The notes beneath the pieces were generated by a model. The model did not search any database. It had not been told where the DNA came from and saw only the letters and a list, made by a program, of their open reading frames with translations. A program made the position numbers and the translations under genes. DNA of 18,230 nt from a bacterium (GTDB lineage Bacteria > CSSED10-310 > JAJRTK01), in NCBI GenBank assembly GCA_024278345.1, contig JAJRTK010000523.1, positions 1-18,230 on the forward strand, read 5' to 3'. This document shows positions 1 to 16,300 of this stretch, one piece after another. Numbering within the stretch: position 1 is the first letter of the stretch; every line of letters begins with the position of its first letter.

Positions 1-1579
1 CCAGTCCCAAGCCGGTGCCTTTTCCCGCAGGCTTTGTCGTGAAGAAGGGCTCGAAGACTCTTTGAAGACTCGAAGTTGGAATGCCGGTGCCGGTGTCCTC
101 GACGCCCAGCTCCAACCACTGGCTTCGGTCCACTGTGACCCGTCGGGTGGACACGCGAATCACTCCCGGCCCATCCATGGCATCCATTCCGTTGAGGAGC
201 AGGTTCACGAGAATCTGGCAAAGGGCGTCTGGATCGGCCAGAAACCTGGGAACCTCTGAATCCTGTGTTCTTTCCACGACGATTCCTCGCTGCTCAAGGA
301 GGTATTGCACGAACAACACCGCATTCTCCACGACCTTGGAGATATCCATGGGTTGCGGATGAATCTCATCCCTGCGTGCCATGAGAAGGAGGCGCCTCAT
401 GATGTTGTCCATCCGCCGCGTCGATTCTTCCATGAGATCCAAGAGGATAGAAACTGGTTCAGGCACGTGTGGGAGTCGTTTTCGGGTGAGTTCCAAGGCA
501 TGCTGCAGGCCATTGATGGGATTGCCGATTTCATGAGCTAGCCTCGCCGACATCTCACCCAGCGCTGCCAAGTTTTCCGTGAGGGCCAGTTTCTTTCGGA
601 GTTCCACCTCTTCCGTGATGTCTCGACGTCGCTCGATAACCGTCCAAGCACCGTCCGGCGTGAGCAAAGGTCCGAAAGAGACCTCCCAAACACAACCATC
701 CCTCCGCGCCTGCTGGAACGAAACCGGCTTCCGGGTCCGGAGGACCGCTTCAAGACCACAACCGGCACAGGGTTTCTTCTCCCCTTGCAGAACGGTATAG
801 CAGGCTTCCGCGCCAGGCCCCATGCGCCGCCGCACGGGGCTGTTGGCGAACTGGATCCTGTAGTCCGGCGTGATGGCGCACACCTCTTCCCCCAACTGAT
901 CCACCAGCGCCTGAGTGTAACTCCGAAGGTGATGGATCTGTGCCTTCCGCCTGCCCAAACGCCGCATGACCGAGCTGGTCAAAAAAAGGGAGCAAAACAT
1001 GACAATGCAAAAGGAAATGAAGATGGCCGCGGCAAAGAGAGGCGTCTCCACCACACCAGAAAGCCCCAAAAAAAGGGACTTATCCGGAGGCTGGTGGGGA
1101 AGGATTCTCGCGCTCTCCAAAAAGACCAGGCTTCCGAATAAGAAGCAGGCCAACGCGGTCACGGCGAAGCTTTCCCTGGCGCTCAGCAGGATGCTGGCAC
1201 TGATGACGTGGAACACGAAGACAAAGGCGAAGGGGTTATCCATCCCGCCGGAATAGTGCAGTACGGCGGTGAGGGCCATAAGATCCAACGTGATCTGGCC
1301 AAGGGCCTGAAACCGCAACGAATAACCAGAATCCAACAACCGCCAGAACAAAAGATTGTAGCCCGCGATGGCGGCGGCGATCCAGTAGTGGATCGCCCCG
1401 TTTTCGACGAGGGGAATCCCAAGAAGATGAACTGCAGCCAGCGCAGCCAAAGCCACCATGGCACCAATGAGCCACCTGGCCCGCACGAAGAGCATGAGCC
1501 CGGCGTGGAGCTCATGCTCGGCGGTTGGGACGTCGGCAAATGCCCAGGTGGACCTCAGGGCTTTCGATTCGGGGTTCAC
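1..1579 (-). CDS. Sensor histidine kinase, six-TM RegB-like sensor plus PAS (3' end off window)
   Basis: Membrane histidine kinase that should autophosphorylate and pass phosphate to a response regulator, not seen here. The reading frame is open from a stop at 1619-1621 to the left edge, giving 526 visible residues. Residues about 32-202 contain six hydrophobic segments; residues 111-117 read GGMDNPF between segments 3 and 4, matching the GGXXNPF quinone-site motif of RegB/PrrB kinases. A PAS-like region (about 215-320) has a Cys pair in PCAGCGL. The H-box is LAHEIGNPI with His349, the N-box is NLLLNGMDAM, G1 is EDTGTGIP and G2 is GKGTGLGL at the window edge. The start is uncertain: GTG at 1579 follows a GAGGAG only three bases away, and ATG at 1495 is an alternative. 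Unlike classical RegB it has an added PAS domain and no Cys next to the H-box. It is separated from the cytochrome genes by 175 bp. Kinase assignment is firm; redox sensing is inferred. Confidence 0.9.
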   Translation of the reverse strand, partial: MNPESKALRSTWAFADVPTAEHELHAGLMLFVRARWLIGAMVALAALAAVHLLGIPLVENGAIHYWIAAAIAGYNLLFWRLLDSGYSLRFQALGQITLDLMALTAVLHYSGGMDNPFAFVFVFHVISASILLSARESFAVTALACFLFGSLVFLESARILPHQPPDKSLFLGLSGVVETPLFAAAIFISFCIVMFCSLFLTSSVMRRLGRRKAQIHHLRSYTQALVDQLGEEVCAITPDYRIQFANSPVRRRMGPGAEACYTVLQGEKKPCAGCGLEAVLRTRKPVSFQQARRDGCVWEVSFGPLLTPDGAWTVIERRRDITEEVELRKKLALTENLAALGEMSARLAHEIGNPINGLQHALELTRKRLPHVPEPVSILLDLMEESTRRMDNIMRRLLLMARRDEIHPQPMDISKVVENAVLFVQYLLEQRGIVVERTQDSEVPRFLADPDALCQILVNLLLNGMDAMDGPGVIRVSTRRVTVDRSQWLELGVEDTGTGIPTSSLQRVFEPFFTTKPAGKGTGLGL

Positions 1580-1683
1580 CTTCTCCTCGCGGACAAGAGT
1601 CAGGGTTGGGCGGGGAGCCTAATCCCGGAAGAGTGCCGAAACCTGGGGCCGGATGACGCCTTGGGATCCTAAGCCTGGGTCAA

Positions 1684-1754: not shown

Positions 1755-2369
1755 TCACTCATGGCACTCCTCGCAAAGGGACGGGCTCTTCCGTCCATCG
1801 CCATGGCAAGCGGCACAGGTGAAAATGTTGTTTCTGGCGGCTCGGCCGTGAAAGTTTCTGGATGCAGGATCGAAAAACCCGACACTGGGATGGATGGCCA
1901 CCTGCAGGTCGGTGACATTGCGTTCGTCGAGTCCCACGGATCGATGACAGGTCACGCACTGCTCGGGCCGGTGGCACGATTCGCATCGGGTCGTTCCCTT
2001 CTGGCTGTCGATGCCGTGGCGATCAACCCAGTTTTCCTCGTGGATGAGCACGCCGCCGGTCTTCTCTGGAACGATATCCGACTGGGTCTCGGTTCCAAGG
2101 TGACAGTTGACGCAAAAAGTTTCCCGATGGCAAGAGGTGCATTTGGCGGCAGTCCTGGAAAAGGTTGCCTGCCGGTGGTTCTTGGCGAAATCGAGTCCGT
2201 GGTTGGGCGGTTTGAGCTGGGCGATGGAGTCATGGCACTCCAGGCATTGGTAGCCTCGGGTGCGATGGCTTCTGGCATCATAGTCACCCTTCTGGAGTCC
2301 CCGTTCTCCGCCAGCCACTGTGGTGGCGATGGCCAAGAGCAGAATGGCCATCGTGGATCGAGCTTTCAT
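1755..2369 (-). CDS. Heptahaem c-type cytochrome (periplasmic side of porin-cytochrome module)
   Basis: 204-residue secreted cytochrome c. Residues 1-20 are a signal peptide with a hydrophobic core (MAILLLAIATTVAG). Seven CXXCH haem sites follow: CLECH 42, CTSCH 77, CVNCH 86, CESCH 129, CVTCH 138, CAACH 185 and CEECH 199, the last ending one residue before the C-terminus. There is no lipobox and no second membrane segment, so a soluble periplasmic protein or one plugged into the barrel is expected. The size and haem density resemble the small periplasmic cytochrome of porin-cytochrome (Pcc/Oma) complexes. The ATG is supported by GGGAGG six bases upstream. It starts 15 bp after the barrel gene, whose start carries the same GGGAGGTC ribosome site, so the two are almost certainly co-transcribed. 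Haem counts are read directly; the conduit role is inferred from context. Confidence 0.92.
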   Translation of the reverse strand: MKARSTMAILLLAIATTVAGGERGLQKGDYDARSHRTRGYQCLECHDSIAQLKPPNHGLDFAKNHRQATFSRTAAKCTSCHRETFCVNCHLGTETQSDIVPEKTGGVLIHEENWVDRHGIDSQKGTTRCESCHRPEQCVTCHRSVGLDERNVTDLQVAIHPSVGFFDPASRNFHGRAARNNIFTCAACHGDGRKSPSLCEECHE

Positions 2370-2384
2370 GACGGACCTCCCGAG

Positions 2385-3659
2385 CTATGGTTTGGTGGCA
2401 AAACGGTAGCGCAGCTTGAGGCTGCCTCGGCCGCGTTTTCGGTCGAACTGCAGCGTCTCTACACCCCCTGATGCCACGACGCTCATTTTGTCCATGAATT
2501 GCCACTCCATCGACGCGATGGCGGACGAAGCCCAATCGTCGGCATCTCGGTATTGGAGGAACAAAAGAGCATCCCGATTGAAGAATAGGAGACTGGCCCG
2601 GAGGCCGGCAAACAGGTGCTTGTTCAGGCGTTGCCGCCATCGGCCTACCAGGGCGTCTCCGTCATCTCCGAAGCCCACCTGGCGCTCGTAGGTCAGCCCG
2701 GCCACGTTTTCCCGCTCCGTTCCGTACCGATAGCTCAGGGCAGTTCGAAGCTCCCAGGTATCGTCATCGGCATAGAGATAGGCATGGAGGCTTGCCTGCA
2801 ATTTGAACCCCTGAAAAGGGCTCCAGGCCAGCTCGCCCCAAAAGTCGTTGATCGCTTCCAGCTCGAAGCGCGTGAAAACGGAGGTCTGCCCCAGATAACT
2901 GGCGGGCACCCTCCGCTGAAAACCGATGGCCGTCCGCAGGTTCGGTCGCAAGCCGTACCGCACCACGGCCGTCGTGTCGGCGAGTCCATTGAGAAGATAG
3001 CTGTACGCGACGTTGGCCTCGATCCAGAGGTCTTTCGCAGGCGCCATACCCAGCTCCAGGCCGACGATGCCTCTGTCACTCTCTCCATCGCGGTTGGTAT
3101 AGAGAAACGAAAGGCCCACGTCGAGTTTCTTCAAGAGAGTACCGCTCAGCCGAAGTCCCGCCAAAGCCGCATCCTTGTCGAAACCGTGGTAAGGCCCGAC
3201 CTCGAAGCCTCCGTAAAGATCCAGGTCCACCGGCCCCAGCGGCGCTAGGAGCTGCAACCCATCGAAGTAGGCCGAAGCCGCTTCCTGCAGCCGGAAAATC
3301 CGGCCCACCCGTAGCTGGGTGCGATCCGCCTTGTCCAGATGGAGGGCGGCATATCCGTACAAAAGGTCGAAGTCGCTGGATCCCTCGATGATGTCTTTGT
3401 CGGCAAGATGGAGACCTGCGCTCATGTAACTGTGAAAGGTGAGCTTGCCGTTGAGCAAGCCATCGACATTGGCCAACAGATACTGGCGCAGGGTGACTTT
3501 GTTCCTGGCGTCCAGGTAATTGAAGAAAAACTGGTCCTCGCTGTATCCAAACAGGGTCGAGCCCTCTAGCTCCAGCTCGACCGCACCGGCCCGTGACGGC
3601 GGGAAGACGAACACCGCTGCCGCCAGGAGAATCAGGAACAGCTCATATCGGGTACGCAT
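2385..3659 (-). CDS. Outer-membrane beta-barrel protein, porin of cytochrome conduit
   Basis: 424 residues. The N-terminal 26 form a signal peptide (hydrophobic LFLILLAAAVFVF, then SRAGA before VELELEG). The rest is a long run of amphipathic strands alternating polar and aromatic/aliphatic residues with short charged turns (for example LDLYGGFEVG, LRTALSYRYG, GSLKLRYRF), as in large outer-membrane barrels. The protein contains no cysteine at all, so it has no haem site. It sits between two multihaem cytochrome genes, 49 bp after one and 15 bp before the other. In MtrCAB and Geobacter Pcc systems a barrel sheathes a cytochrome so electrons can cross the outer membrane; this length is close to the shorter Pcc-type barrels rather than the ~700-residue MtrB. 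GGGAGG precedes the ATG at good spacing. Barrel identity is strong from composition and pattern; family membership could not be tested here. Confidence 0.82.
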   Translation of the reverse strand: MRTRYELFLILLAAAVFVFPPSRAGAVELELEGSTLFGYSEDQFFFNYLDARNKVTLRQYLLANVDGLLNGKLTFHSYMSAGLHLADKDIIEGSSDFDLLYGYAALHLDKADRTQLRVGRIFRLQEAASAYFDGLQLLAPLGPVDLDLYGGFEVGPYHGFDKDAALAGLRLSGTLLKKLDVGLSFLYTNRDGESDRGIVGLELGMAPAKDLWIEANVAYSYLLNGLADTTAVVRYGLRPNLRTAIGFQRRVPASYLGQTSVFTRFELEAINDFWGELAWSPFQGFKLQASLHAYLYADDDTWELRTALSYRYGTERENVAGLTYERQVGFGDDGDALVGRWRQRLNKHLFAGLRASLLFFNRDALLFLQYRDADDWASSAIASMEWQFMDKMSVVASGGVETLQFDRKRGRGSLKLRYRFATKP

Positions 3660-3708
3660 GATGACCTCCCTGCGTTACCATCCTTTGAGGCTCGGAACGC
3701 TCCGCTGT

Positions 3709-4890
3709 TCATGGGGAATGAACCAGCCGTGCATTCTCCGCGGCCCAAGAGAGACTCGTTTGCAGGGATGCGTCTTCGCCGTTGTGACAGCTCAGGCAGG
3801 CAAAATCCAACGTCACCGCCCCCCTGGCAAAGGTCTTGCCATCCTCTTCGTAGAACATGGCCTCTTCCGCGGTGGCGGCAATGGGGTTAATACTAAAAAT
3901 GTGGCTGCTGATGTCACCTCGGCGGTTCACACCGGAGCCAAAGGCCACGGCGCTCTTAGCCGCCGCCGGCATGTGGCACGATTCGCACGCCACCGATCCC
4001 GCGTGGCCCAGGAGCCCGTCACTCTTGGTGGGATGGCAGTCCACGCAGTCGGCAATCAGCGCCACGGATCGCCTGTAAAGCACCGACGCGTGGGGCTCGT
4101 GGCAAGATCCACACTCCAAAACCGCATGCCCACCGGCAATCATCTCGTCATACTGCTCGTGGTGGCGAATGAAGCCCTTGCTCACCTCGACTCGCCTCTT
4201 CGCATCCCGCGTGTGGCAATTCCCGCAAAGCTCCGCCGTCCGGTCGATGGGCATCTCCGTCCGGAAGGGTGAGTTGGCGTGGTGGCTGCCCTCACCATGG
4301 CAGGCTTCACACTGGACCCCGGGCTCCGAAAAGGTGCCGGCGATCCCCGAAAAACCCTCCTGATGTCCGCCATCGGGATCCCAGCCCGTAGTGTGGCACT
4401 TGCCGCAGGTGTAATCCTTCCTTCCGATATTCGCATCCCAAGGCCCGGGAGTCCCATCGGGCGCCGTGTGGCTGGAATCATTGCTGTAGGCGCTCCAGCC
4501 CTGGGTCTCCAGATTGTATTGGACCGTTGGTCCAAGGATGATTTGCCCGTTTCGATCCATGAAGCGGGCCTTCCATCCAAAACCACCGATCATCCAGGCG
4601 ATATCGCTCCAGGTATAACCTTCTGGTGGATTCGGAACCGCGGAAAAGGGAAAGCTCGGCCGCTGGCCGTTCAAGACGCGGCTGAGCTTGTAGGGGTGGC
4701 CAGATTGCATAAATTCATCGTACATACCTTGGTGGCATCCGGCACATCGCTCGGCACCGATATAGGAATTGGAGCCCAAAGCAATGTTATCTGCGCTGTC
4801 ATCGCTACAACCAGCGATCACCAGCAAGGCCGACGTCACCGCCATAACCTTGCCGAACATCTGTCGTCGCTCTATTCTGAGTCGTTTCAT
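3709..4890 (-). CDS. Octahaem c-type cytochrome lipoprotein
   Basis: 393 residues from the ATG at 4890, chosen because it begins a lipoprotein signal (MKRLRIERRQ, hydrophobic AVTSALLVIAGC, lipid Cys28) and is preceded by GAGGAAGGG; the frame stays open 49 codons further upstream without a signal sequence. Eight CXXCH sites: CAGCH 49, CGKCH 162, CEACH 194, CGNCH 222, CGSCH 260, CVDCH 282, CESCH 302, CLSCH 365. The first haem segment (YIGAERCAGCHQGMYDEF) looks like the start of cytochrome c554-type proteins. About 108 residues without haem separate sites 1 and 2. It is first in a three-gene set with a barrel and a heptahaem cytochrome, so it is the best candidate for the cell-surface member that hands electrons to an external acceptor or partner. 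A periplasm-facing lipoprotein or a terminal reductase are alternatives, since topology cannot be read from sequence. Confidence 0.92.
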   Translation of the reverse strand: MKRLRIERRQMFGKVMAVTSALLVIAGCSDDSADNIALGSNSYIGAERCAGCHQGMYDEFMQSGHPYKLSRVLNGQRPSFPFSAVPNPPEGYTWSDIAWMIGGFGWKARFMDRNGQIILGPTVQYNLETQGWSAYSNDSSHTAPDGTPGPWDANIGRKDYTCGKCHTTGWDPDGGHQEGFSGIAGTFSEPGVQCEACHGEGSHHANSPFRTEMPIDRTAELCGNCHTRDAKRRVEVSKGFIRHHEQYDEMIAGGHAVLECGSCHEPHASVLYRRSVALIADCVDCHPTKSDGLLGHAGSVACESCHMPAAAKSAVAFGSGVNRRGDISSHIFSINPIAATAEEAMFYEEDGKTFARGAVTLDFACLSCHNGEDASLQTSLSWAAENARLVHSP

Positions 4891-5156
4891 CTCCGTCCCT
4901 TCCTCGAATCGGTTGGCAACTTGCTTCGTGCCTTGCCATCCAGGCTCCACGAGCCAAGGATGGCGCAGTGCCGTTGAAAAGGAGCAAGTCACATGCCAAC
5001 CATACGGAAACTGGTAGAATCGCCCGTTGGCCGGCAACAGAGCACGGAAACAACGGGTTCAGTTTCATGCTCCGGGAAGAACCCAATTGCCTCCTGCCCG
5101 CCGAAGCCTCAGGAATGAGACCAAAGTCGGTCACCATCCCAAAAGCAGATGGGGAA

Positions 5157-5276: not shown

Positions 5277-6641
5277 CTACTTTCGCAGAGCTTGGGCCGC
5301 CGCCAGTCGGACCTCTTTTCGCCCATCGCCCAAAGCACGCTGCAACGCCGCCGCCGACCGATCCGAACGCCTGGCCAGAGGCCCCAATGCCCGAACAGCC
5401 TGAAGTCGCACCCACCAGTCGAAATCGGCGAAGGCCTGGAGAAGCGCGGGCTCCATCTCCAGGGATGCCCCGAGTTCGGCCAAGGCAAAGGCCGCAATCC
5501 GCCGAACGTCGCGGTCTCGGGAAGAGAGGGCCGCGGTGATCCGCGGTGCGTCGAGACCGGCATAAAGCCCAGCCAACCAGCCTCCGTAGAGGAGACCTCG
5601 AGCCTGCACATAGAGCTCCGGGTCCGCAAGAACCGCCTGGATAGCCTCCACGAGGTCCGTGGCCTCTGGCACCACCAAGGCGATGGCTTCGAATGCTAAT
5701 TCTCTCACTGCTGGCTCGCCATCGCGGAAGGCGGTCGCAAGGAGCGGCCCCAGAGCTGCCTTCGACGCCGGCCCCCACTCCCCAAGGAGTTCCGCGGCAA
5801 GCTGGCGGCGACCGCTGAAGGGGTCGGTCAAAACCTCCGCCACCAACGGCACAGCCCGAGAGAGCTGCAAGGAAAGCAACTCCCGAGCGGTCCCCCGAAC
5901 ATAATCCTCCCCTGTCCTGAAAGCCTCTACCAGTGCCGGTAGAACAGAAGCCGGGATGGCGGTCACACCTTCCAGAGCCAAAGCGGCCTCGGCCCGGACA
6001 TCGGAATCGCCTTCCGCCAGGATCTCGCAAAGGACGATGAGCACATCCCGCCGATCCCTGGCCATGCCTCCGATTCCCTCCACCAAAAACAGGCGGACAC
6101 CCGGTTCCGGTTCCTGGAGTAGGGCATCAGTGAACAGAGGAACCAGCCCCGGGTTCTCGGCAATTCGCTTCGATAATACCGCGGCGGCATCTCTCCTCAC
6201 CGGCCAGGCCGGATCGGTTTCCAACGCTTCCACCAAGGCATCCATCGCTTCAGGGTGGTGGCTTCCGGCAAGGAGTGCAAGGGCGTCCAGCCGCTCCTGG
6301 AGGTTGCCTGCACGAAGATCCCTCACCCAAGCGTCCTGGCGATTTCGGGCACGCATGCGGTCGAGATCCGCATCCCTCCCTCCTCTAAGGGTCCCAAAGG
6401 CCAGCCCTAGAGCCTCTACCGCAGCCACGCCCGCACCAAGGGAACTGCCTCCCACGGCCCCCACGGCAGATCCTATCACGCCAAGGCTGGCTTTTCGGAT
6501 AGAAAGACCGTTCTCCGCGCCTTCTTCACCGGCACGAACGCCTGTTGAGAAAACCACCGCCATGGAGAAGAACGCCACGCCAATCCGGACGATGCTCTCT
6601 CTCCACGGCAAGAAGGCAAGCAAGAAGAAAAAACTTCTCAC
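5277..6641 (-). CDS. Secreted or membrane-anchored HEAT-repeat protein
   Basis: About 454 residues from a GTG at 6641 whose bases overlap the stop of the preceding gene (GTGA), a common sign of coupled translation; a longer ATG start at 6692 would overlap the neighbour by 55 bp. Residues 1-37 look like a long signal sequence or membrane anchor, with a likely cut after GVRA. Residues about 52-86 form a Gly/Ala-rich, glycine-zipper-like hydrophobic stretch (GVIGSAVGAVGG and following). From about residue 93 to the end there are nine or ten alpha-helical repeats of HEAT/PBS-lyase type, recognisable by DVRAEAALAL, AVRELAFEAI, DVRRIAAFAL, WVRLQAVRAL and EVRLAAAQAL. No catalytic residues are seen, so it is probably a protein-binding scaffold. 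It is last in the sulfatase/FGE-like operon. Partner unknown. Confidence 0.85.
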   Translation of the reverse strand: MRSFFFLLAFLPWRESIVRIGVAFFSMAVVFSTGVRAGEEGAENGLSIRKASLGVIGSAVGAVGGSSLGAGVAAVEALGLAFGTLRGGRDADLDRMRARNRQDAWVRDLRAGNLQERLDALALLAGSHHPEAMDALVEALETDPAWPVRRDAAAVLSKRIAENPGLVPLFTDALLQEPEPGVRLFLVEGIGGMARDRRDVLIVLCEILAEGDSDVRAEAALALEGVTAIPASVLPALVEAFRTGEDYVRGTARELLSLQLSRAVPLVAEVLTDPFSGRRQLAAELLGEWGPASKAALGPLLATAFRDGEPAVRELAFEAIALVVPEATDLVEAIQAVLADPELYVQARGLLYGGWLAGLYAGLDAPRITAALSSRDRDVRRIAAFALAELGASLEMEPALLQAFADFDWWVRLQAVRALGPLARRSDRSAAALQRALGDGRKEVRLAAAQALRK

Positions 6642-7687
6642 CGCACCACCCGAAATCCGGTGAAGCCCGCTTTTCCATCTGGCAAGAACCAACCCCGGAA
6701 CGACACCCTTACTTTCTCAGGATAGTCACGCCAAGATCCACCGCGCAGGGAACGATATTCAGGTCCGTAGCCACGAACGAACGGGTTCCGGGTCAGTCCT
6801 TTGCGAGACTGATAGCTGTCCGATTTGTAGCCGTCCTCACACCATTCGTAGACGTTTCCCAGCATATCATAGAGTCCGAATGCATTGGGTTTCTTGGATC
6901 CCACGGACTGTGGCCTCTTTCCGGCAACAAGCTTGCCATGCCAGGCGATCTCGTCCAGCACGCCATACCGAGCGGCATCTACACCGCCCCGGGCAGCATA
7001 TTCCCACTGGGCATCCGTCGGCAGCCGCAAGCCCAGGCCCGACTTTTTCAGGAAGTCATGGGTCCGTTTCCAGGAGATCATTTCCACGGGGCATTCATCG
7101 CAGCCGTGGAATGCGGCAACGTTCTTGCCAGTCACCGCGATCCACTGGCCCTGGGTCACCTCGTACTGCCCCATCCAGAACCCATCGACCCAGACCCGAT
7201 GCCGCGGCTTTTCGTCGTCCAGGCAGTCACCATCGCCACGCGAACAACCCATCCAAAACTCACCCCCGGGAATCCAGGCCATCTTCAAGTCGGTCTCCCC
7301 AAGACTCACCGTCACTCGATCCAGCCCCAGCACCTTGGCCTTCCTCGGATCAAGCCGCCAAAGGGCGCCACCCAGGGCCAATAGCTCCTCACCCGTCGCT
7401 TTTTTCACCGCGGCGGTCAGCAGGGAAACGGCCTTGTCCTGGTCGGCCGCCCGACCCAGCTTTCGGATTTCATCGGCGACCGCGATCCGTTCATCTCTGG
7501 ACGAACTCGATAGCTTCCCCATGAGTTCACCGGAGCCAACTCCCATTTTTGAGGGCTGCGTCGCCGCGGGACCGCTTGTTGCACGGCGAGTTGCCGGCGC
7601 CTCGCCTGCCAAGCCCAGTGTCCCCTGGAGAAAAATCAAGACTCCTGCCGCCAACCCGGCAATTGCCCCCGTCTTTTTTATGCTCAT
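6638..7687 (-). CDS. FGE-sulfatase (SUMF1) domain protein lacking catalytic cysteines
   Basis: 349 residues from the ATG at 7687 (AAGGAAGG ten bases upstream); the open frame reaches 7750, but the extra codons precede the signal peptide and overlap the sulfatase gene end. Residues 6-28 are a signal peptide or anchor. Residues about 55-115 are helical and HEAT-like. Residues about 129-349 form the C-lectin-like SUMF1 fold: IPGGEFWMG 139-147, the PVEMISW region 200-206, RLPTDAQWEYAARGG 221-235, NAFGLYDMLGNVYEWC 268-283, LRGGSW 314-319 and GFRVVR at the end. In true formylglycine-generating enzymes the two copper-binding Cys follow the GGS segment; here that stretch reads WRDYPEKVRVSFRG with no Cys. 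Two Cys at 148 and 155 lie in an Asp-rich loop. It is therefore more likely a binding or regulatory member of the family than a sulfatase maturase. It lies 49 bp after the sulfatase gene. Confidence 0.9.
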   Translation of the reverse strand: MSIKKTGAIAGLAAGVLIFLQGTLGLAGEAPATRRATSGPAATQPSKMGVGSGELMGKLSSSSRDERIAVADEIRKLGRAADQDKAVSLLTAAVKKATGEELLALGGALWRLDPRKAKVLGLDRVTVSLGETDLKMAWIPGGEFWMGCSRGDGDCLDDEKPRHRVWVDGFWMGQYEVTQGQWIAVTGKNVAAFHGCDECPVEMISWKRTHDFLKKSGLGLRLPTDAQWEYAARGGVDAARYGVLDEIAWHGKLVAGKRPQSVGSKKPNAFGLYDMLGNVYEWCEDGYKSDSYQSRKGLTRNPFVRGYGPEYRSLRGGSWRDYPEKVRVSFRGWFLPDGKAGFTGFRVVR

Positions 7688-7736
7688 TTGTCTTCTACCT
7701 TCCTTGATTCCATGAACGACCAGTGCTGAAAACCCT

Positions 7737-9917
7737 TCACCACTGGCCAAACGCGCGCCGAAGCTTTTTCACCTGTGCCCGCCCCTGGGGCGAGGGGTTG
7801 TCCCGTGCAAACCGTCCCAAAATCGCTGCCAGCTCTTTCCGGCGTCCCTGGGCTCGATAAAGAGCACAAAGCTCCGCCAAGGCACTGCCATTGTCCGGAT
7901 ATAACCGCATCTCTTGCCGAAGCAGCTTCTCCGCACCCGCCGCGAATCCCCCATGGGTGAGACGCCCGTCTTCACCGAAACTGAGAGCCAGGAGCGTGTC
8001 TCCATGATAAAAACTAAAGTGGGGAATCCTTGTGCCCGGCTGCTTTTTCAATTCATCCGCTACTTTTTCGAACGAGGTGAGAGCTTCGGAGAAGTCCTTC
8101 TTGCCATAGGAAAGAACACCGTCGATGAATGGGATTGCAGCCGGTAAAAATGGGGCCGCCTCCGACGCAAGCTGCCGGGCGGCATCGGGCTTGCCAAGCT
8201 GGAGATCCAGGAGTGCCAACCGAACCTTCGCCTCCCCCGGCCTCTTCTCCGCGGCTTTCTTCAGGATCGCCCGGACCTGGTCGAGCTTGCCCAGAGGCAC
8301 CAGCAACTCGCAAAGCTCAAAAAGTTTCTCGACCCGATGCGGAGCGATTTCGAGGCCCTGTTCCAGGGCTTCCACTGCCTCAGCGTACCGCCCCAACCGC
8401 CGAAGAGCCAATGCCAGCTCATCCCAAGCATCGGGCATTCTGGGGCTCCCCCGCAAAACCTCCCTCAACTTCTCTACAACCTGCTCGTAGCGCCCCACCT
8501 TCTTCAAGCCCATGGCTTGTCGATAGAGATTGAGGTCGCCAATCCTCTCCTTGGGATCGGGGCGCTCCACCTCTTCCCCGCCGGAAGCCACACCGCCCGC
8601 GTAGCCAAGAGCACCCACGACTTCGAGCTCCTCCGGGGAAAGAAGCTCCGGCGCTGGAAGATCAGCCAAGCCGCCAAACTTCTCGAGCTCGCGGCGAAGG
8701 TGCTCCCGGACTTTTTCAATTTCCGAGGCAGGTTCGGAAGCAAGCAAGTTGTGTCGCTGCCCAGGGTCGATCACAATATCATAAAGTTCCTGGCGAGGCG
8801 CAAGGATGTAGCTGTATCGAGCCCCCGTCAACGCCACAAGCTCTTTCCAGCCAAAGTGGAGACGCCCATAGTAGCTCTCTGAGTAGACCCAACGCTCCCG
8901 GGCCAATCGCTTCCCTCTCAGCACTGGAACCAACGAAATGCCATCTGGAGAATCCCCGTGGCTACCGGCGGAAGCCCCTACAAGCTCCAGAATCGTCGGA
9001 AAGAGATCCACAAGCGCAACCGGTGCCTCCCAGCGCCTGCCCCTTTGACGCCCCCCGGGAAGCTTAACCACCAGGGGCACCCGCAACACCTCGCGGTAAA
9101 GAAAAACCCCGTGATCCCGCTCGCCATGCTCCCCAAGCCCCTCTCCGTGATCCGACACCAACAGAATGAGACTCCCATCGTACAGGCTCAGCCTTCGAAG
9201 GCCATCCAAGAAACGCCCCACAAGCTCATCGCTGTAGGCCACCTCCCCATCGTAGAGATTTCCTTTGTACCGATCCCAAAATCGCCGGGGCGGCTTATAG
9301 GGTGTGTGTGGTTCGTAGAGATGGAGAAATAAGAAAAAAGGTTCCTCTGACCTTCCCGCTCCTTGGCCAACGGATCCCTCTACCTGCCGCTCCAACCAAC
9401 CGAGAGCCCGCTGGACCGTCTCCGCTCCGGACCTCTCCGCCTCGGAAAGGGGTTCCCCCCATCGTGGCCGCTCCAAGTCATCGTCATACCAGTCAAATCC
9501 GCGGCCGATCCCTGTCTCATGCCGGAGCACCAGACTCGAAACCGCTCCACCGGTGGAGTATCCCGCCCTTTTCAACGTCTCGGCCAAAGTTGAATGCTCA
9601 TCGCCAAGACGAAATCCGACGTTGTCCCGGACACCATGATGAACCGGCAGGTATCCCGTGAAGATGGAAGCATGCGACGGAAGCGTCAAAGGAACATGGG
9701 AATAGGCATTCTCGAAGACCACGCCATCCCCGGCAAGAGAATCGATGGCGGGTGTCTCAATGCGGTTGTAACCGTATATCGGTAACCGGTCGCCACGAAG
9801 CGTGTCGATAGAAATCAAGATCACGCTGGGAGGCGCCTCCCGAAAAAAGATTGGCCATGCGAAAAGAGCCGCCAACAGTGCCAGCATGCCCAGCCCCCAG
9901 AATACCTTCCTGGTCAT
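7737..9917 (-). CDS. Membrane-anchored sulfatase-fold hydrolase fused to TPR repeats
   Basis: 726 residues from the ATG at 9917 (GGGGAAGAG just upstream; the open frame extends 16 codons further without support). Residues 6-25 are an N-terminal signal anchor. Residues 30-395 are an alkaline-phosphatase-superfamily sulfatase domain: metal-binding IDTLRGDR (Asp38), the nucleophile segment LTLPSHASIFTG, EPHTPYKPP 202-210, SDHGEGLGEHG with Asp256/His257, and the late QELYDIVIDPGQRHNLL. At the formylglycine position the usual C-x-P-S-R is T-L-P-S-H (Thr78, His82). Thr is the nucleophile in phosphodiesterase-like members, so the substrate could be a phosphate or phosphonate ester, or a lipid/glycan headgroup, rather than a sulfate ester. 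Residues about 460-720 form several TPRs (for example AWDELALALRRLGRYAEAVEAL). First gene of a likely operon with the FGE-like and HEAT-repeat genes. Fold is clear; substrate unknown. Confidence 0.9.
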   Translation of the reverse strand: MTRKVFWGLGMLALLAALFAWPIFFREAPPSVILISIDTLRGDRLPIYGYNRIETPAIDSLAGDGVVFENAYSHVPLTLPSHASIFTGYLPVHHGVRDNVGFRLGDEHSTLAETLKRAGYSTGGAVSSLVLRHETGIGRGFDWYDDDLERPRWGEPLSEAERSGAETVQRALGWLERQVEGSVGQGAGRSEEPFFLFLHLYEPHTPYKPPRRFWDRYKGNLYDGEVAYSDELVGRFLDGLRRLSLYDGSLILLVSDHGEGLGEHGERDHGVFLYREVLRVPLVVKLPGGRQRGRRWEAPVALVDLFPTILELVGASAGSHGDSPDGISLVPVLRGKRLARERWVYSESYYGRLHFGWKELVALTGARYSYILAPRQELYDIVIDPGQRHNLLASEPASEIEKVREHLRRELEKFGGLADLPAPELLSPEELEVVGALGYAGGVASGGEEVERPDPKERIGDLNLYRQAMGLKKVGRYEQVVEKLREVLRGSPRMPDAWDELALALRRLGRYAEAVEALEQGLEIAPHRVEKLFELCELLVPLGKLDQVRAILKKAAEKRPGEAKVRLALLDLQLGKPDAARQLASEAAPFLPAAIPFIDGVLSYGKKDFSEALTSFEKVADELKKQPGTRIPHFSFYHGDTLLALSFGEDGRLTHGGFAAGAEKLLRQEMRLYPDNGSALAELCALYRAQGRRKELAAILGRFARDNPSPQGRAQVKKLRRAFGQW

Positions 9918-10357: not shown

Positions 10358-13300
10358 TTACAGGGATCGGCGCCGCCTTGACAGTACGCCTGCCGCGAGG
10401 AACGACAAGAGCAACATCAGGGCCAGGACCGTTAGCTGCGTCACCGAACCCACAGTCCTGAATGCCGTGGTCGTCAGCGTCACCGCATCCAGCACCGTAC
10501 CATCGGACTGGGATGTCGCCGTAAGAACCACCGCATCGGACGAATTGTAGGCCACATTCGCAGGTATCGTCACCGTCACCTGGACTGTTTCGCTCACACC
10601 GGAATCCAGCGGCGATGTCTGGGGTTTATCGACAACAGCCGTCCAGACGCTGGTTCCCAGGGTGATATCGAACGCTTCCGTAGCATTCCCGGTATTGGTG
10701 ATGTCCACTGAGTAGACAACATCGCGGCCAGGATCGCTCGTGATGGCACTCGTCGTCGCCACCGCAGTCACGCCGTAGAGGAAGTTCGCCGAGGTAATCA
10801 GCGGGATGGCATCCCATTCCTGCGCGTCCCCTTGGGAAGTCACTGTCAGTGTCGCCACGTCGGTGTCTCCGCCACTGGCATTCGCCGGAACATTGACCGT
10901 CACGGTGACCGTTCCCGATCCTCCCGCATTCAGCGGACCAACCGTGCCAACGTCCACCATCGTGCCAGACCAGAGGTCGCTGGCGACAACCACGTCGAAC
11001 GTGTCGGTGGCATTGCCGCCGTTGGTGACCGTCAGGTCGTATGTCACCACACTGTTGGGGTCTGCCCACTGGTGGGCTGTTCCCGAAGTCAAGGCAACAG
11101 CGGGGAGGTAGACTGCGTCAACCGTTGTGGTCAGGGTAGATGTCGCGGAGACAGTGGGATCGTTCTGCGAGGTCGCCGTCACCACGGCGGCATCAACGGA
11201 ACCCGCTGCGGTTCCCGCGGGCACAAACACCGTGATCTGAACCACGATGGTCGATCCCGGGTTCACCGGACCCACGGTGCCACTCACGTCCCGAGCCGAA
11301 CCCACGGCCGTCGCCCAGTTGCTGACGACATTGATGTCGTAGCTATCCGCGGCTTCGCCCGTATTGGTCAGCGTCAAGTCGTAGACCACCGTCGATTCCG
11401 GTGTCGTCTGAACATCCGTGCTCGGCGTCAAGTCCAAGCCGCCAACGATGACATCGGTCACCGTCAGATCGACTGGAACCTGAACGAATCCAAGACCAGG
11501 ATCGTCCGTCTGAACAATCAGGGTCGCCGAATAGGTTCCCGGAGTCAGGCTGGTGGCATCCAAGGTCACATCCACCGTGCCCGCCGTATCCGCGGCAACA
11601 GAGCCTGGATTCGGTGTTTCCGACAGCCAGGGAACATCCACGTAGGGCGATACACAGCTCTCGCCGGACAGCGTCCGGAAGTAGTTATCGTTCCAAATGG
11701 CCCCGATGTCGTAGGAACCCGTATACCAGATCTCCGCGTCGGCCAGGGCGCCGGTGCAGAACCCCGCATTGATGGCCGTAGTAGCGAAGGGCGGCGAATC
11801 ACTGAAAGTCGCCCAGGCACCAGCGGGCCAGGCCGACAGATCCAGCTCTTCCACAAGGTTCGTGCCGTCGAAGTAGAACCCGCCATTCTGATCGCCACCG
11901 ATAGCGTAGAGGGCTCGATCCGTTCCCGCCAGCGCAAAGTCAGCCCTTGCGCTGGTGAAGGCCGGACCGGTGGTCCATGTATCGGAAGCAAGGTCGTACT
12001 GCTGGGTTGCTGTAACATTGGGCACGTTACCGTTGGGATCGTTGGGATCCGGCACGCTGGCGTCGTCCCAACCTCCGACAACATAGAGGAACTGCCCAAG
12101 CTGCCGCGAACCCGCCATGAAGACAGGCGTCGGCATGCTCGTTCCCGTGCTCCACGTGTCGGTGGCGATGTCGTAGATATCCACGTCACCTACCGTGCCA
12201 GCGTCATCTCCACCCACGACATAGATCTTGCCTTCCCACGCGGCCAGGGCGGAGCCCCAGGTATAACGGGGAAGCAAAGTGCCCGAGTACCACGTGTCGG
12301 CGGCAATGTCGTAGATGTAGTTGAAGTCCCAGCTCCATCCAAACCAAGAGCCACCCATCACATAGATGTAGCCCTGGTAACAGATGGCCGAAGCGGCTTC
12401 GGTTCCCAAGGGTATGGGCGCCAAGGCCACCCATTCGTTGTTGTCGGCATCGAAGCGCCAACTGTTGTCAGTCAAGGCGAAACTCCCGTCGATCCCACCA
12501 AAGACGTAGAACGAATTCGGCGTCTCCCAGCACTGGGCCGAAGCGTACCGGATCAAACCGCCGGGAACCGGGCTGGCAGAGTACCATGCGGGACTCTGAG
12601 CAACGCGGCTTGGCTGGTTCGAGCCGGATCCCTTGCCCACGAGGGACATGGGCATTGGAGCCACTGGCCGACCCTTGGCGTCGGGCTGGATCTTCGTGGC
12701 GGGGCCGTTCAAGGTTGCCCTTGGCACGACGACGCCGCCATCGACTTCAAAGGCTTCGTAGCTCACGCTACCGGCGCCTGTGTTCGTCATGTTCAGGGAC
12801 GTCATGCCGGACGTGCCTTCGTCCAGCGTCATGGTAATGGCGTTGGGATCGGTGACGGTGCAGGGGGAGTCCGGCCGCATCGCTACGTCCGAAGTTCCCA
12901 TGACCTGCTGCGTCACACCTACCGAAGCCGTGAAGTCAGCGAATCCAGTGGCCGAAACGACCAGCGTATAGGTTCCTTCAGCCATCCAAGCTTCATAGGT
13001 TCCATCCGCCAGGGAGGCGGCAGCCACTACGTTGTTCGGATCGGCATCGTCGGTGAAGGTCAACGTCGCGTTCTCCAGCACCGCACCCGGCGCTTGGTCG
13101 CAGTAGTCCAGACCGGTCACCGTCCCCACCAAATAGCCGTAGTTCGCGGGCACGACCACCATGGTCACGTCCAGAACAGGCACCGACGGTGCCGAACTCG
13201 ATGCACGAAGCTGCGCTGAGTAGGTTCCGGTCATGGTCACCACATTTGGGTCACTGGCATCGAACGTGACATCTACCGGCTGGTTGCCGTCCGGTACCAC

Positions 13301-16300
13301 CGTCGCGGTGGACGGATTTTCACTCAGCCACAAGACATCGCTCGCCGCAAGAGCCGCCAAATCGTAGCCCACAATCGTGTCCGATGCTGCTTGGTGCATC
13401 CCGACGAAAGTGACGTTGGGGAACGCGAATTCGGTTGTGATCGCCGCTCCACCGGCACCCCCTGTCAGGTCCGCGGCGCCGCTGAAGCTCACGCCTGTCG
13501 CCAAACCGGTGGCCGGATCGATCTGGGTCGCCGTATGACCGGTTGCACCGTCCTGGGACCAAATCCATAGGAAGGGGCCACCGGTGGTGTAGGGATCCCA
13601 AGCCGCGCCGTAGGCCGCAAGGCCGTTGGTGGCAAACTGGTTGATCACGGTACCGGTTCGATCAAACTCAAAAAGGTCGCCACCGAAGTTCTGCGTCCAG
13701 AAATTGTCCGTCACGGGATCGTAAGCCAATGCCCGGCACGGGTTCTCAGGACAGGGAATGGTGACGCCAGTCGCCGTCCCAGTGGCAGGATCGATCTGAT
13801 CCAGGACCGTGGAATCACTGGCATAGAGGTAGGTTCCATCGTAAGCCAAATCGCGCCAGCCCCAGGTGGACGCGGTCGGTTGGATATAGGTGTTGAGAAG
13901 GACTCCGTTGGGATCGAGCTCGAACAGGTAGTTCTGCTCAGTGTAACTGGTCAGCCCGGCCGCCGTCGCCCAGAGACTTCCGTTAACCCACTCCACCCCA
14001 AGCAGGAGAACACTGCCCGTCGCGGCACCGGCATCGATTCTGAAGACTTCGTCGCCAAGTGCCGTGGGCGCGAGGCCCGGACGGACTTGGGGAGAGATCT
14101 CAGCGTCGGCAACCTGAGGCGCCGGAACCAGAGGAGGCAAGGGAGCCGTCGGCCCGGCCACGAAGCCAAGGTCGAACTCCAACAGGTCGTAGACATCTCC
14201 GGCGGCGCCAGAGTTCGTCAAGGTGAATCCAGGATTCAGGCTTCGGGTCATTCCCATTGCCAGAGTCATGGAGAGAGCATTCTGATCCGCCGTGTAGCAA
14301 GACGCGTCGAACCGCAGGACGAAGTCCTGAGTGACCGGAGCGTTGGGACCCAGCACGACGGTTGTCGATTGAGTCACATACCCGGCATAGGAAACGTCCA
14401 CGTTATAAGTGCCACCGGCCAACCAATAGGCGTAACCGCCGTCCGCCGCCGTGGCCAAATTGGCCGCGGGAGTGTTGGGAGCATTGGGATCCGTCACGAC
14501 CACCGCGGCGCCCTCCAATGCGCCTGCCGGCACATCACAGTAGCTGAGGCCCGTCACCGTTCCCTGGATCTTGCCCCAGCCAGCGGGCGAAGTCACGATC
14601 ATCGTCACCGGTACGATAGGATCGACGGGAGTCGAATTGAGAAGCACCAGATCCGCCGTGTAAGTCCCTGGCTGGGGCACCACGTTGGGATCGCTGGCGT
14701 CGAAGGTAATGTTAAACGCCGCATTGCCCGCGGCGGCAATCGTCGCTCCATTGGGATCCTCGTCGAGCCACAGAATGTCGGAAACTCCGCCCGAAGCGAC
14801 GGAAAAAGCTCCTACCTCGGCGTTGTTCGGGAAAGCCCCAACCAAGGTTCCCGCACCGGTGCCCACGTCGAGAATCCACATTTCGCCACCCGAACCACTG
14901 ATGTTGTAGGCGGCCAAATAGAGTAGGCCGGCCAGTTCATCGTAATCCATGCTTTGAATGTAGTTCGCGCTGAATCCAACAGGCCCAATGACTGTACCGG
15001 CTCCGGTTACCGGATCGACACTCAAAAGACTGTCGCTGACAATATCGAAGGCCCAGATCTCCCCCGCGCTCCCCACCGCGATGTCCACGACGCAAGCACC
15101 GTTGGTGATGGCACCAATCGTTGTGGGTGCGCCCGTAGCGGGATCGAGGGTATAGAGAGTCGAAGCGGAGCAGGTCGTCGCAACCGCATAGAGAGTTCCG
15201 TCCAGGGCACCGCCCATTCCCGACCAGGTCTCGCCTGTCCCTGGCACGGGCGTGCCGATCACTGTCTCCGCTCCAGTGGTCGTATCCACAGTCACGAAGT
15301 TGCCTGAAGTATTATTGATGGCATAGAGCTTGGTGAAGTCGCCTTGCAAGAAGTCTCCGGCCCAATAGTCCGGGGCTCCTCCCACCGACGTCCATGTTCC
15401 GGGAAGATCGATGTCCGGTATGCTCACCACCGCGTCCGTCCCAGGGAAGATATCGACACCGAATCCGGGTGATCCCGCAAATGGCAAGGCCACCGAGCCT
15501 GCGGTCTCATAGCTACAGAGTCTGTGCATCTCTGGCGAGGCTGGTCCCAGCCTTGTGGGGCGATCCAAACATTCTGCCGGGAGCTCCCGCTTCGGTCGAT
15601 CCGCGGCGGATTCCTGAAGCGCCGCCAGCTTCGCCGCTACCGGCGTTGCCAGGGTGAATCCAGGATTGCCCTCGTAGAAGTTGAACGTCCCGGCGCCGGC
15701 ACCGGTATTGTCCACGGTCAGGGCCGCTGGCAAGAGGTCGAGCTGCCCCATGGGCAACGTATGGGTCAACGAGGTTGGAGCTCCGGCGAAACAGGGTGCG
15801 TCGAGCCTGAGCACGAAGTCCTGGATCGTCGTCGAGTTCGGACCAAGGACCACCGTCGTGTTCTGGGTCACGTAACCAGTGGCAGAGACATCGACAGTGT
15901 AACTGCCAGCCGCCAACCAGTAAGAATAGCTGCCGTCCGCCGCGGTCAACAAGTTGACCGGCGGACTGTTCGGTGCGTTGGGATCGGTCACCACCACTGC
16001 TGCGTCCTTGAGGGCACCCAGCGGATCGTCGCAATTCCCAAGCGCCGTCACGACTCCGGAGAGCTTGCCCCAGCTCGCTGGCGCGGTCACCGTCATGGTC
16101 ACCGGGACTTTGACCATGCCGTAAGGCGTGTCATTGGAAAGAACAATGTTCGCCCTATAGGTTCCGGGCTGTGGAACGACGTTGGGGTCGTTGGCGAAGA
16201 AGTGAACGTTGTAAGCCTGGTTTCCGGCAGCGACGATGACCGCGTTGTTCGGGTCTTCATCGAGCCAGAGAGCATCACCCACGCCGCCCGCGGCGATGGC

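Follow-up and report, generated by a model that had tools for sequence, protein, structure and literature searches.

Do three neighboring genes of an uncultured bacterium encode a path for electrons across the outer membrane, and which of the known systems does it resemble? An initial annotation of the locus had proposed a porin-cytochrome conduit on the basis of two multihaem cytochrome genes with a barrel gene between them. In the following, the window denotes the whole stretch of DNA analyzed (18,230 nucleotides), which is one entire contig (C470) of a genome (G000) of 6.06 Mb in 550 contigs with 87.9% completeness.

Gene set and genomic context

All three genes lie on the minus strand and are read in the order octahaem cytochrome (4890-3709), barrel (3659-2385) and heptahaem cytochrome (2369-1755). 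The features of the locus are:

3709..4890, minus strand: octahaem c-type cytochrome with lipoprotein signal, 393 aa, 8 CXXCH, lipobox VIAGC (Cys28), predicted to be surface-exposed
3660..3708, minus strand: gap of 49 bp in the sequence, with GGGAGG ahead of the barrel ATG
2385..3659, minus strand: putative outer-membrane beta-barrel, 424 aa including the signal peptide, no Cys
2370..2384, minus strand: gap of 15 bp in the sequence, with GGGAGG ahead of the heptahaem ATG
1755..2369, minus strand: heptahaem cytochrome, 204 aa, 7 CXXCH, predicted to be periplasmic, in or under the barrel
2..1618, minus strand: sensor histidine kinase, truncated at the contig end (Pfam: PilS-like membrane part, PAS, HisKA, HATPase_c)

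The three-gene layout with eight plus seven haems, the Cys-free barrel, both gaps and the matching ribosome sites, all part of the initial annotation, were thus confirmed from the sequence. The CXXCH counts of octahaem protein, barrel and heptahaem protein are 8, 0 and 7; shuffled cytochromes of equal composition reached a maximum of two motifs (5,000 shuffles each). The downstream kinase gene is incomplete because the window ends with its contig. Its PilS-like part matched the Pfam model just under the cut-off, and the kinase is a possible regulator of the conduit; due to a gap of 136 bp, co-transcription with the conduit genes is uncertain. Elsewhere the contig encodes a sulfatase with TPR repeats, an FGE-like protein, a HEAT-repeat protein and, at 10358-18181 on the minus strand, a protein of 2,607 aa with Kelch, carboxypeptidase-regulatory and Ig-like repeats.

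The barrel candidate had no Pfam or NCBIfam match at an E-value of 1, and structure searches with the single sequence and with a profile yielded no solved relative of the family. The designation as a putative barrel derives from homology, neighborhood, the signal peptide and a C-terminal strand ending in ...SLKLRYRF. AlphaFold2 modeled the protein with 18 strands, where the criterion for barrels of the porin-cytochrome (Pcc) kind is 18-22 predicted strands; the alignments used for barrel and heptahaem protein held just two and three sequences, and with a mean pLDDT of 38.6 and a pLDDT of 37.1, respectively, both models are too poor to be used. A profile search detected only one barrel of this family in G000.

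Synteny and co-inheritance of barrel and periplasmic cytochrome

Only eight genomes of the source phylum were part of the comparison set. One of them, from a different family (G003), encodes a 6-haem lipoprotein, a barrel with 40% and a heptahaem protein with 45% identity to those of the window, in the same order. The 6-haem lipoprotein shares merely 27% identity with the octahaem protein, so the surface subunit was replaced or has strongly diverged, a pattern that has been reported for conduits of Geobacter (PMC6148476).

For a broader search, a barrel profile was built from the barrels of the window, G003 and G092; their selection relied on likeness to the window barrel and made no use of haem motifs. 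This profile matched in 25 of 386 genomes, including the three seeds and members of other phyla. A barrel ORF is present at 28 loci in these genomes. At 24 of them a cytochrome with at least five haems starts no more than 150 bp downstream in the same orientation, and leaving out the seeds reduces this to 21 of 25. The four exceptions are L064, which lies at a contig end, L054 with a short barrel ORF and a cytochrome 506 bp further on, L056 and L061. Genes for multihaem cytochromes make up a small minority of a genome. Since they are so few, chance is unlikely to be a serious account of this adjacency. In other loci a cytochrome is also encoded upstream of the barrel.

Additional loci came from a search with the heptahaem protein as sole query, and a wider profile based on 17 earlier barrels recognized the neighboring barrel in seven examined loci with E-values from 1.6e-10 to 1.9e-69. 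None of these seven had contributed to the wider profile, and six of them had been found by octahaem or heptahaem cytochrome searches. A first scan of genome contigs with the barrel revealed no relative, while a second one with the heptahaem pair as query recovered L091 and L092. Plasmid searches with two barrels remained without a match, and a DNA pattern for paired CXXCH motifs retrieved tandem repeats only.

A tree of 23 barrels groups those linked to pentahaem cytochromes with support values of 97/91 and pairs the two linked to heptahaem cytochromes with 100/100; the haem-class labels cluster far beyond shuffled labels. In the tree of the cytochrome cores, the pentahaem proteins likewise group together (96/94) and the heptahaem pair falls outside this group (86/92), although the tree is based on only 105 columns and has many weak branches and some long rows. 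The samples behind trees and profiles are modest, and the aligned sequences are divergent. We read the agreement of the two trees as pointing to co-inheritance of barrel and periplasmic cytochrome, which is also described for the barrel and periplasmic partner of Pcc systems (PMC4245776). The conserved synteny, the adjacency in unrelated genomes and the agreeing trees lend support to the conduit originally proposed for this locus.

The heptahaem protein and a five-haem core

The heptahaem protein carries a signal peptide without lipobox and has no cysteine outside its seven CXXCH motifs. It contains exactly seven histidines outside the motifs, all of which (7/7) are kept in the relative from G003, and one conserved spare histidine per haem fits electron-transfer haems with bis-His ligation. 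The best hit of the heptahaem profile among solved structures, a reaction-centre cytochrome (E 1.9e-4), covers CXXCH-rich stretches and is of no use for an assignment.

Comparison of the relatives divides the protein into a common five-haem core and two C-terminal haems. Pentahaem relatives align with haems 1-5 of the window protein. In relatives with 12 to 14 haems the C-terminal part matches up to all seven haems of the window protein and the additional haems precede it; for instance, the window protein aligns with haems 6-12 of 13-haem cytochromes encoded downstream of related barrels. The 8-haem proteins of L191 and L194 consist of the core followed by further haems. The 7-haem proteins of L060 and L197, in turn, are composed of two plus five haems, compared with five plus two in the window.

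L197 (contig C68 of G044, 6576-9277, minus strand) belongs to another phylum and encodes a 6-haem protein, a barrel of 451 aa and a 7-haem protein in the order of the window. At L060 (contig C23 of G138, 5382-7040, plus strand) an ORF of 552 aa joins four N-terminal CXXCH motifs to a barrel-like region, possibly a haem-barrel fusion, and is followed by genes for 7-haem and 17-haem cytochromes.

Taken together, it is conceivable that many outer-membrane conduits outside the Mtr type share an inherited five-haem core and one barrel superfamily, to which different lineages have added haems at either end. We put this forward tentatively, as an idea with somewhat less than even prospects. The five-plus-two protein of the window would then represent one of the smaller versions.

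The octahaem lipoprotein

Cys28 of the lipobox is the sole cysteine of the octahaem protein outside the haem motifs. The start at 4890 was preferred over an upstream TTG at 5037, since it gives a normal N-terminal lipoprotein signal, which makes this start an inferred one. Homologs with 32-53% identity were found in 14 other genomes; in G003 none was detected at the cut-off used. The lipobox is shared by the homologs in L178 and L184, while several others possess a plain signal peptide, and most of the homologs examined are encoded away from any recognized barrel. In L184, from the distant genome G073, the gene for an octahaem lipoprotein of 48% identity precedes those of a barrel and an 8-haem cytochrome, as in the window. 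Since members of the family are also found with no recognized barrel close by and with no lipobox, the place of the octahaem protein in the complex is deduced from the window locus and L184. Genes for a histidine kinase and for a response regulator are located near the octahaem homologs of L179, L185 and L187; in L179 and L187 the regulator is of the sigma-54 type. A kinase gene also adjoins the window conduit.

Among 13 aligned octahaem proteins, seven histidines outside the motifs are conserved to at least 90% (H65, H204, H243, H255, H267, H330 and H391), compared with eight haems. One haem may hence have a different or open site, which is a hint and no more. Both conduit cytochromes match general multihaem models of Pfam and NCBIfam, and for the octahaem protein the Pfam model of MtrC/MtrF domain II/IV scored above its cut-off. 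We give this latter match little weight, because CXXCH-rich profiles tend to cross-match.

Comparison with known porin-cytochrome systems

Published Pcc systems contain 5-14 periplasmic and 1-15 surface haems (PMC4245776). Small surface cytochromes and odd periplasmic haem numbers are therefore within the known ranges, and the eight and seven haems of the window, initially regarded as unusual in these respects, are ordinary. As is characteristic for Pcc clusters, the gene of a periplasmic cytochrome with a haem number in this range (7 CXXCH) lies next to the barrel gene, at a distance of 15 bp, and, as is usual for them, the cluster includes a gene for a predicted outer-membrane cytochrome, here with 8 CXXCH and a lipobox, 49 bp upstream. 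With its small barrel, adjacent periplasmic multihaem cytochrome and outer-membrane cytochrome the locus resembles ombB-omaB-omcB of Geobacter, and it shares with Pcc systems the co-inherited pair of barrel and periplasmic partner combined with a variable surface cytochrome (PMC4245776). It differs in haem numbers, with seven periplasmic and eight surface haems compared with 8 and 12 in the Pcc of G. sulfurreducens, and in gene order, which is surface-barrel-periplasmic instead of barrel-periplasmic-surface. The assignment to the Pcc kind is one based on architecture.

The position of the barrel gene in the middle, likewise first taken for an oddity, has a counterpart in extABCD, where it is the second gene (PMC6148476), and in the loci with an upstream cytochrome mentioned above. 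A barrel gene followed by that of a small multihaem cytochrome is common to the window and to extABCD and extEFG of Geobacter (PMC6148476). Unlike the ext clusters, the window consists of three genes with a heptahaem partner and without a gene for a dodecahaem periplasmic cytochrome; ExtABCD has the order 12-haem periplasmic cytochrome, barrel, 5-haem and 12-haem lipoproteins, the window 8-haem protein, barrel, 7-haem protein. An order that closely resembles extABCD occurs in L045, with an 11-haem cytochrome, a barrel and two 5-haem cytochromes.

In outline, MtrCAB, MtoAB and PioAB likewise combine a barrel with a periplasmic and a surface cytochrome. The search for MtrB/PioB-type barrels recommended at the outset was carried out and gave no match of PF11854 to the window barrel or anywhere else in G000 (87.9% complete), so this family was rejected. 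In addition, the periplasmic protein has seven haems, unlike the decahaem MtrA, and the 28 predicted strands of MtrB-type barrels (PMC4245776) are likely more than a protein of 424 aa would hold. Of the two models named in the initial annotation, Geobacter Pcc, together with Ext, was hence retained on grounds of architecture, and MtrCAB was dropped. Barrels combined with multihaem periplasmic cytochromes are also known from the porin-dodecahaem complexes of Ca. Manganitrophus (PMC9040806) and from PCC3 and PCC4 (PMC5566968). Judged by their descriptions, these differ from the window in haem numbers and gene content; an inner-membrane protein as in PCC3/PCC4 was not seen in the window.

Proposed electron pathway and alternative explanations

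We are confident that this gene set codes for an electron conduit of the Pcc kind that crosses the outer membrane. The sequences themselves show the genes, their motifs and signals, the conserved order and the joint inheritance of barrel and periplasmic cytochrome. From these we infer a single complex, in which the heptahaem protein would thread the barrel and the octahaem protein would face outward. The barrel in the outer membrane would hold the heptahaem protein, whose five-haem core and two C-terminal haems would carry electrons through it, and the octahaem lipoprotein on the outer face would exchange them with a partner outside the cell. On the inner side, the conduit would in turn give electrons to, or receive them from, a protein of the periplasm or inner membrane.

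G000 is rich in multihaem proteins. L131 on contig C263 (6140-9447, plus strand) encodes a 9-haem protein and a frame of 717 aa with 16 CXXCH, in which Pfam detects a NapC/NirT domain with a score above the cut-off. This NapC-domain protein is a candidate quinol oxidase and perhaps the inner partner of the conduit. The absence of a quinol oxidase from the window, correctly stated before, says little given such a protein on another contig. On contig C157, L134 (4362-7274, plus strand) comprises a frame of 971 aa with 40 CXXCH that continues past the end of the contig.

An ordinary solute porin that came to lie between cytochrome genes by chance would be compatible with the lack of a family model for the window barrel, and one barrel relative (L040) marginally matches the outer membrane homotrimeric porin model (E 0.0071). 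However, multihaem cytochromes adjoin the barrel in 21 of 25 non-seed loci and the trees agree; on this adjacency we rejected the porin explanation, which we regard as highly improbable.

Two further readings are variants of the Pcc conduit, and the confidences placed in them and in the conduit itself do not sum to one. Electrons could flow inward, supplied by another cell or by an outside donor, for instance Fe(II). Porin-cytochrome complexes have been proposed for metal oxidation too (PMC5566968, PMC9040806), and nothing in the sequence fixes the direction; on the other hand, the multihaem protein of contig C263 belongs to the NapC type, a usual quinol oxidase family, which is circumstantial evidence for the opposite direction. 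We consider inward flow rather unlikely, and if we prefer outward flow, with respiration of an acceptor outside the cell, this is no more than a guess. Alternatively, the conduit may serve a dedicated extracellular reductase, with the octahaem protein as terminal enzyme for a soluble acceptor, fed by the barrel and the heptahaem protein. The seven conserved histidines for eight haems, which may leave one haem without a conserved His ligand, point in this direction, as do a weak similarity of the octahaem protein to 6qvm (‘Multiheme cytochrome cf’, E 0.0028) and a match to the octahaem tetrathionate reductase model far below its cut-off. Yet the window protein has 12 histidines outside the motifs, so that all eight haems could be bis-His ligated, CXXCH-rich profiles cross-match easily, and any active site would be putative. 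Such an enzyme appears unlikely to us.

Implications

The conduit would provide a concrete route of electron exchange for an uncultured and sparsely sampled phylum. A literature search on Schekmanbacteria, the name under which the nearest named relative is recorded, returned no paper on such conduits with the search terms used. The shared core, if true, would unite clusters that have so far been described as largely dissimilar in sequence, and a common core and barrel across differing haem counts would amount to a testable general rule for wires crossing the outer membrane. A core with a co-inherited barrel across such unlike haem numbers would be the most interesting outcome of this work and merits a systematic study.
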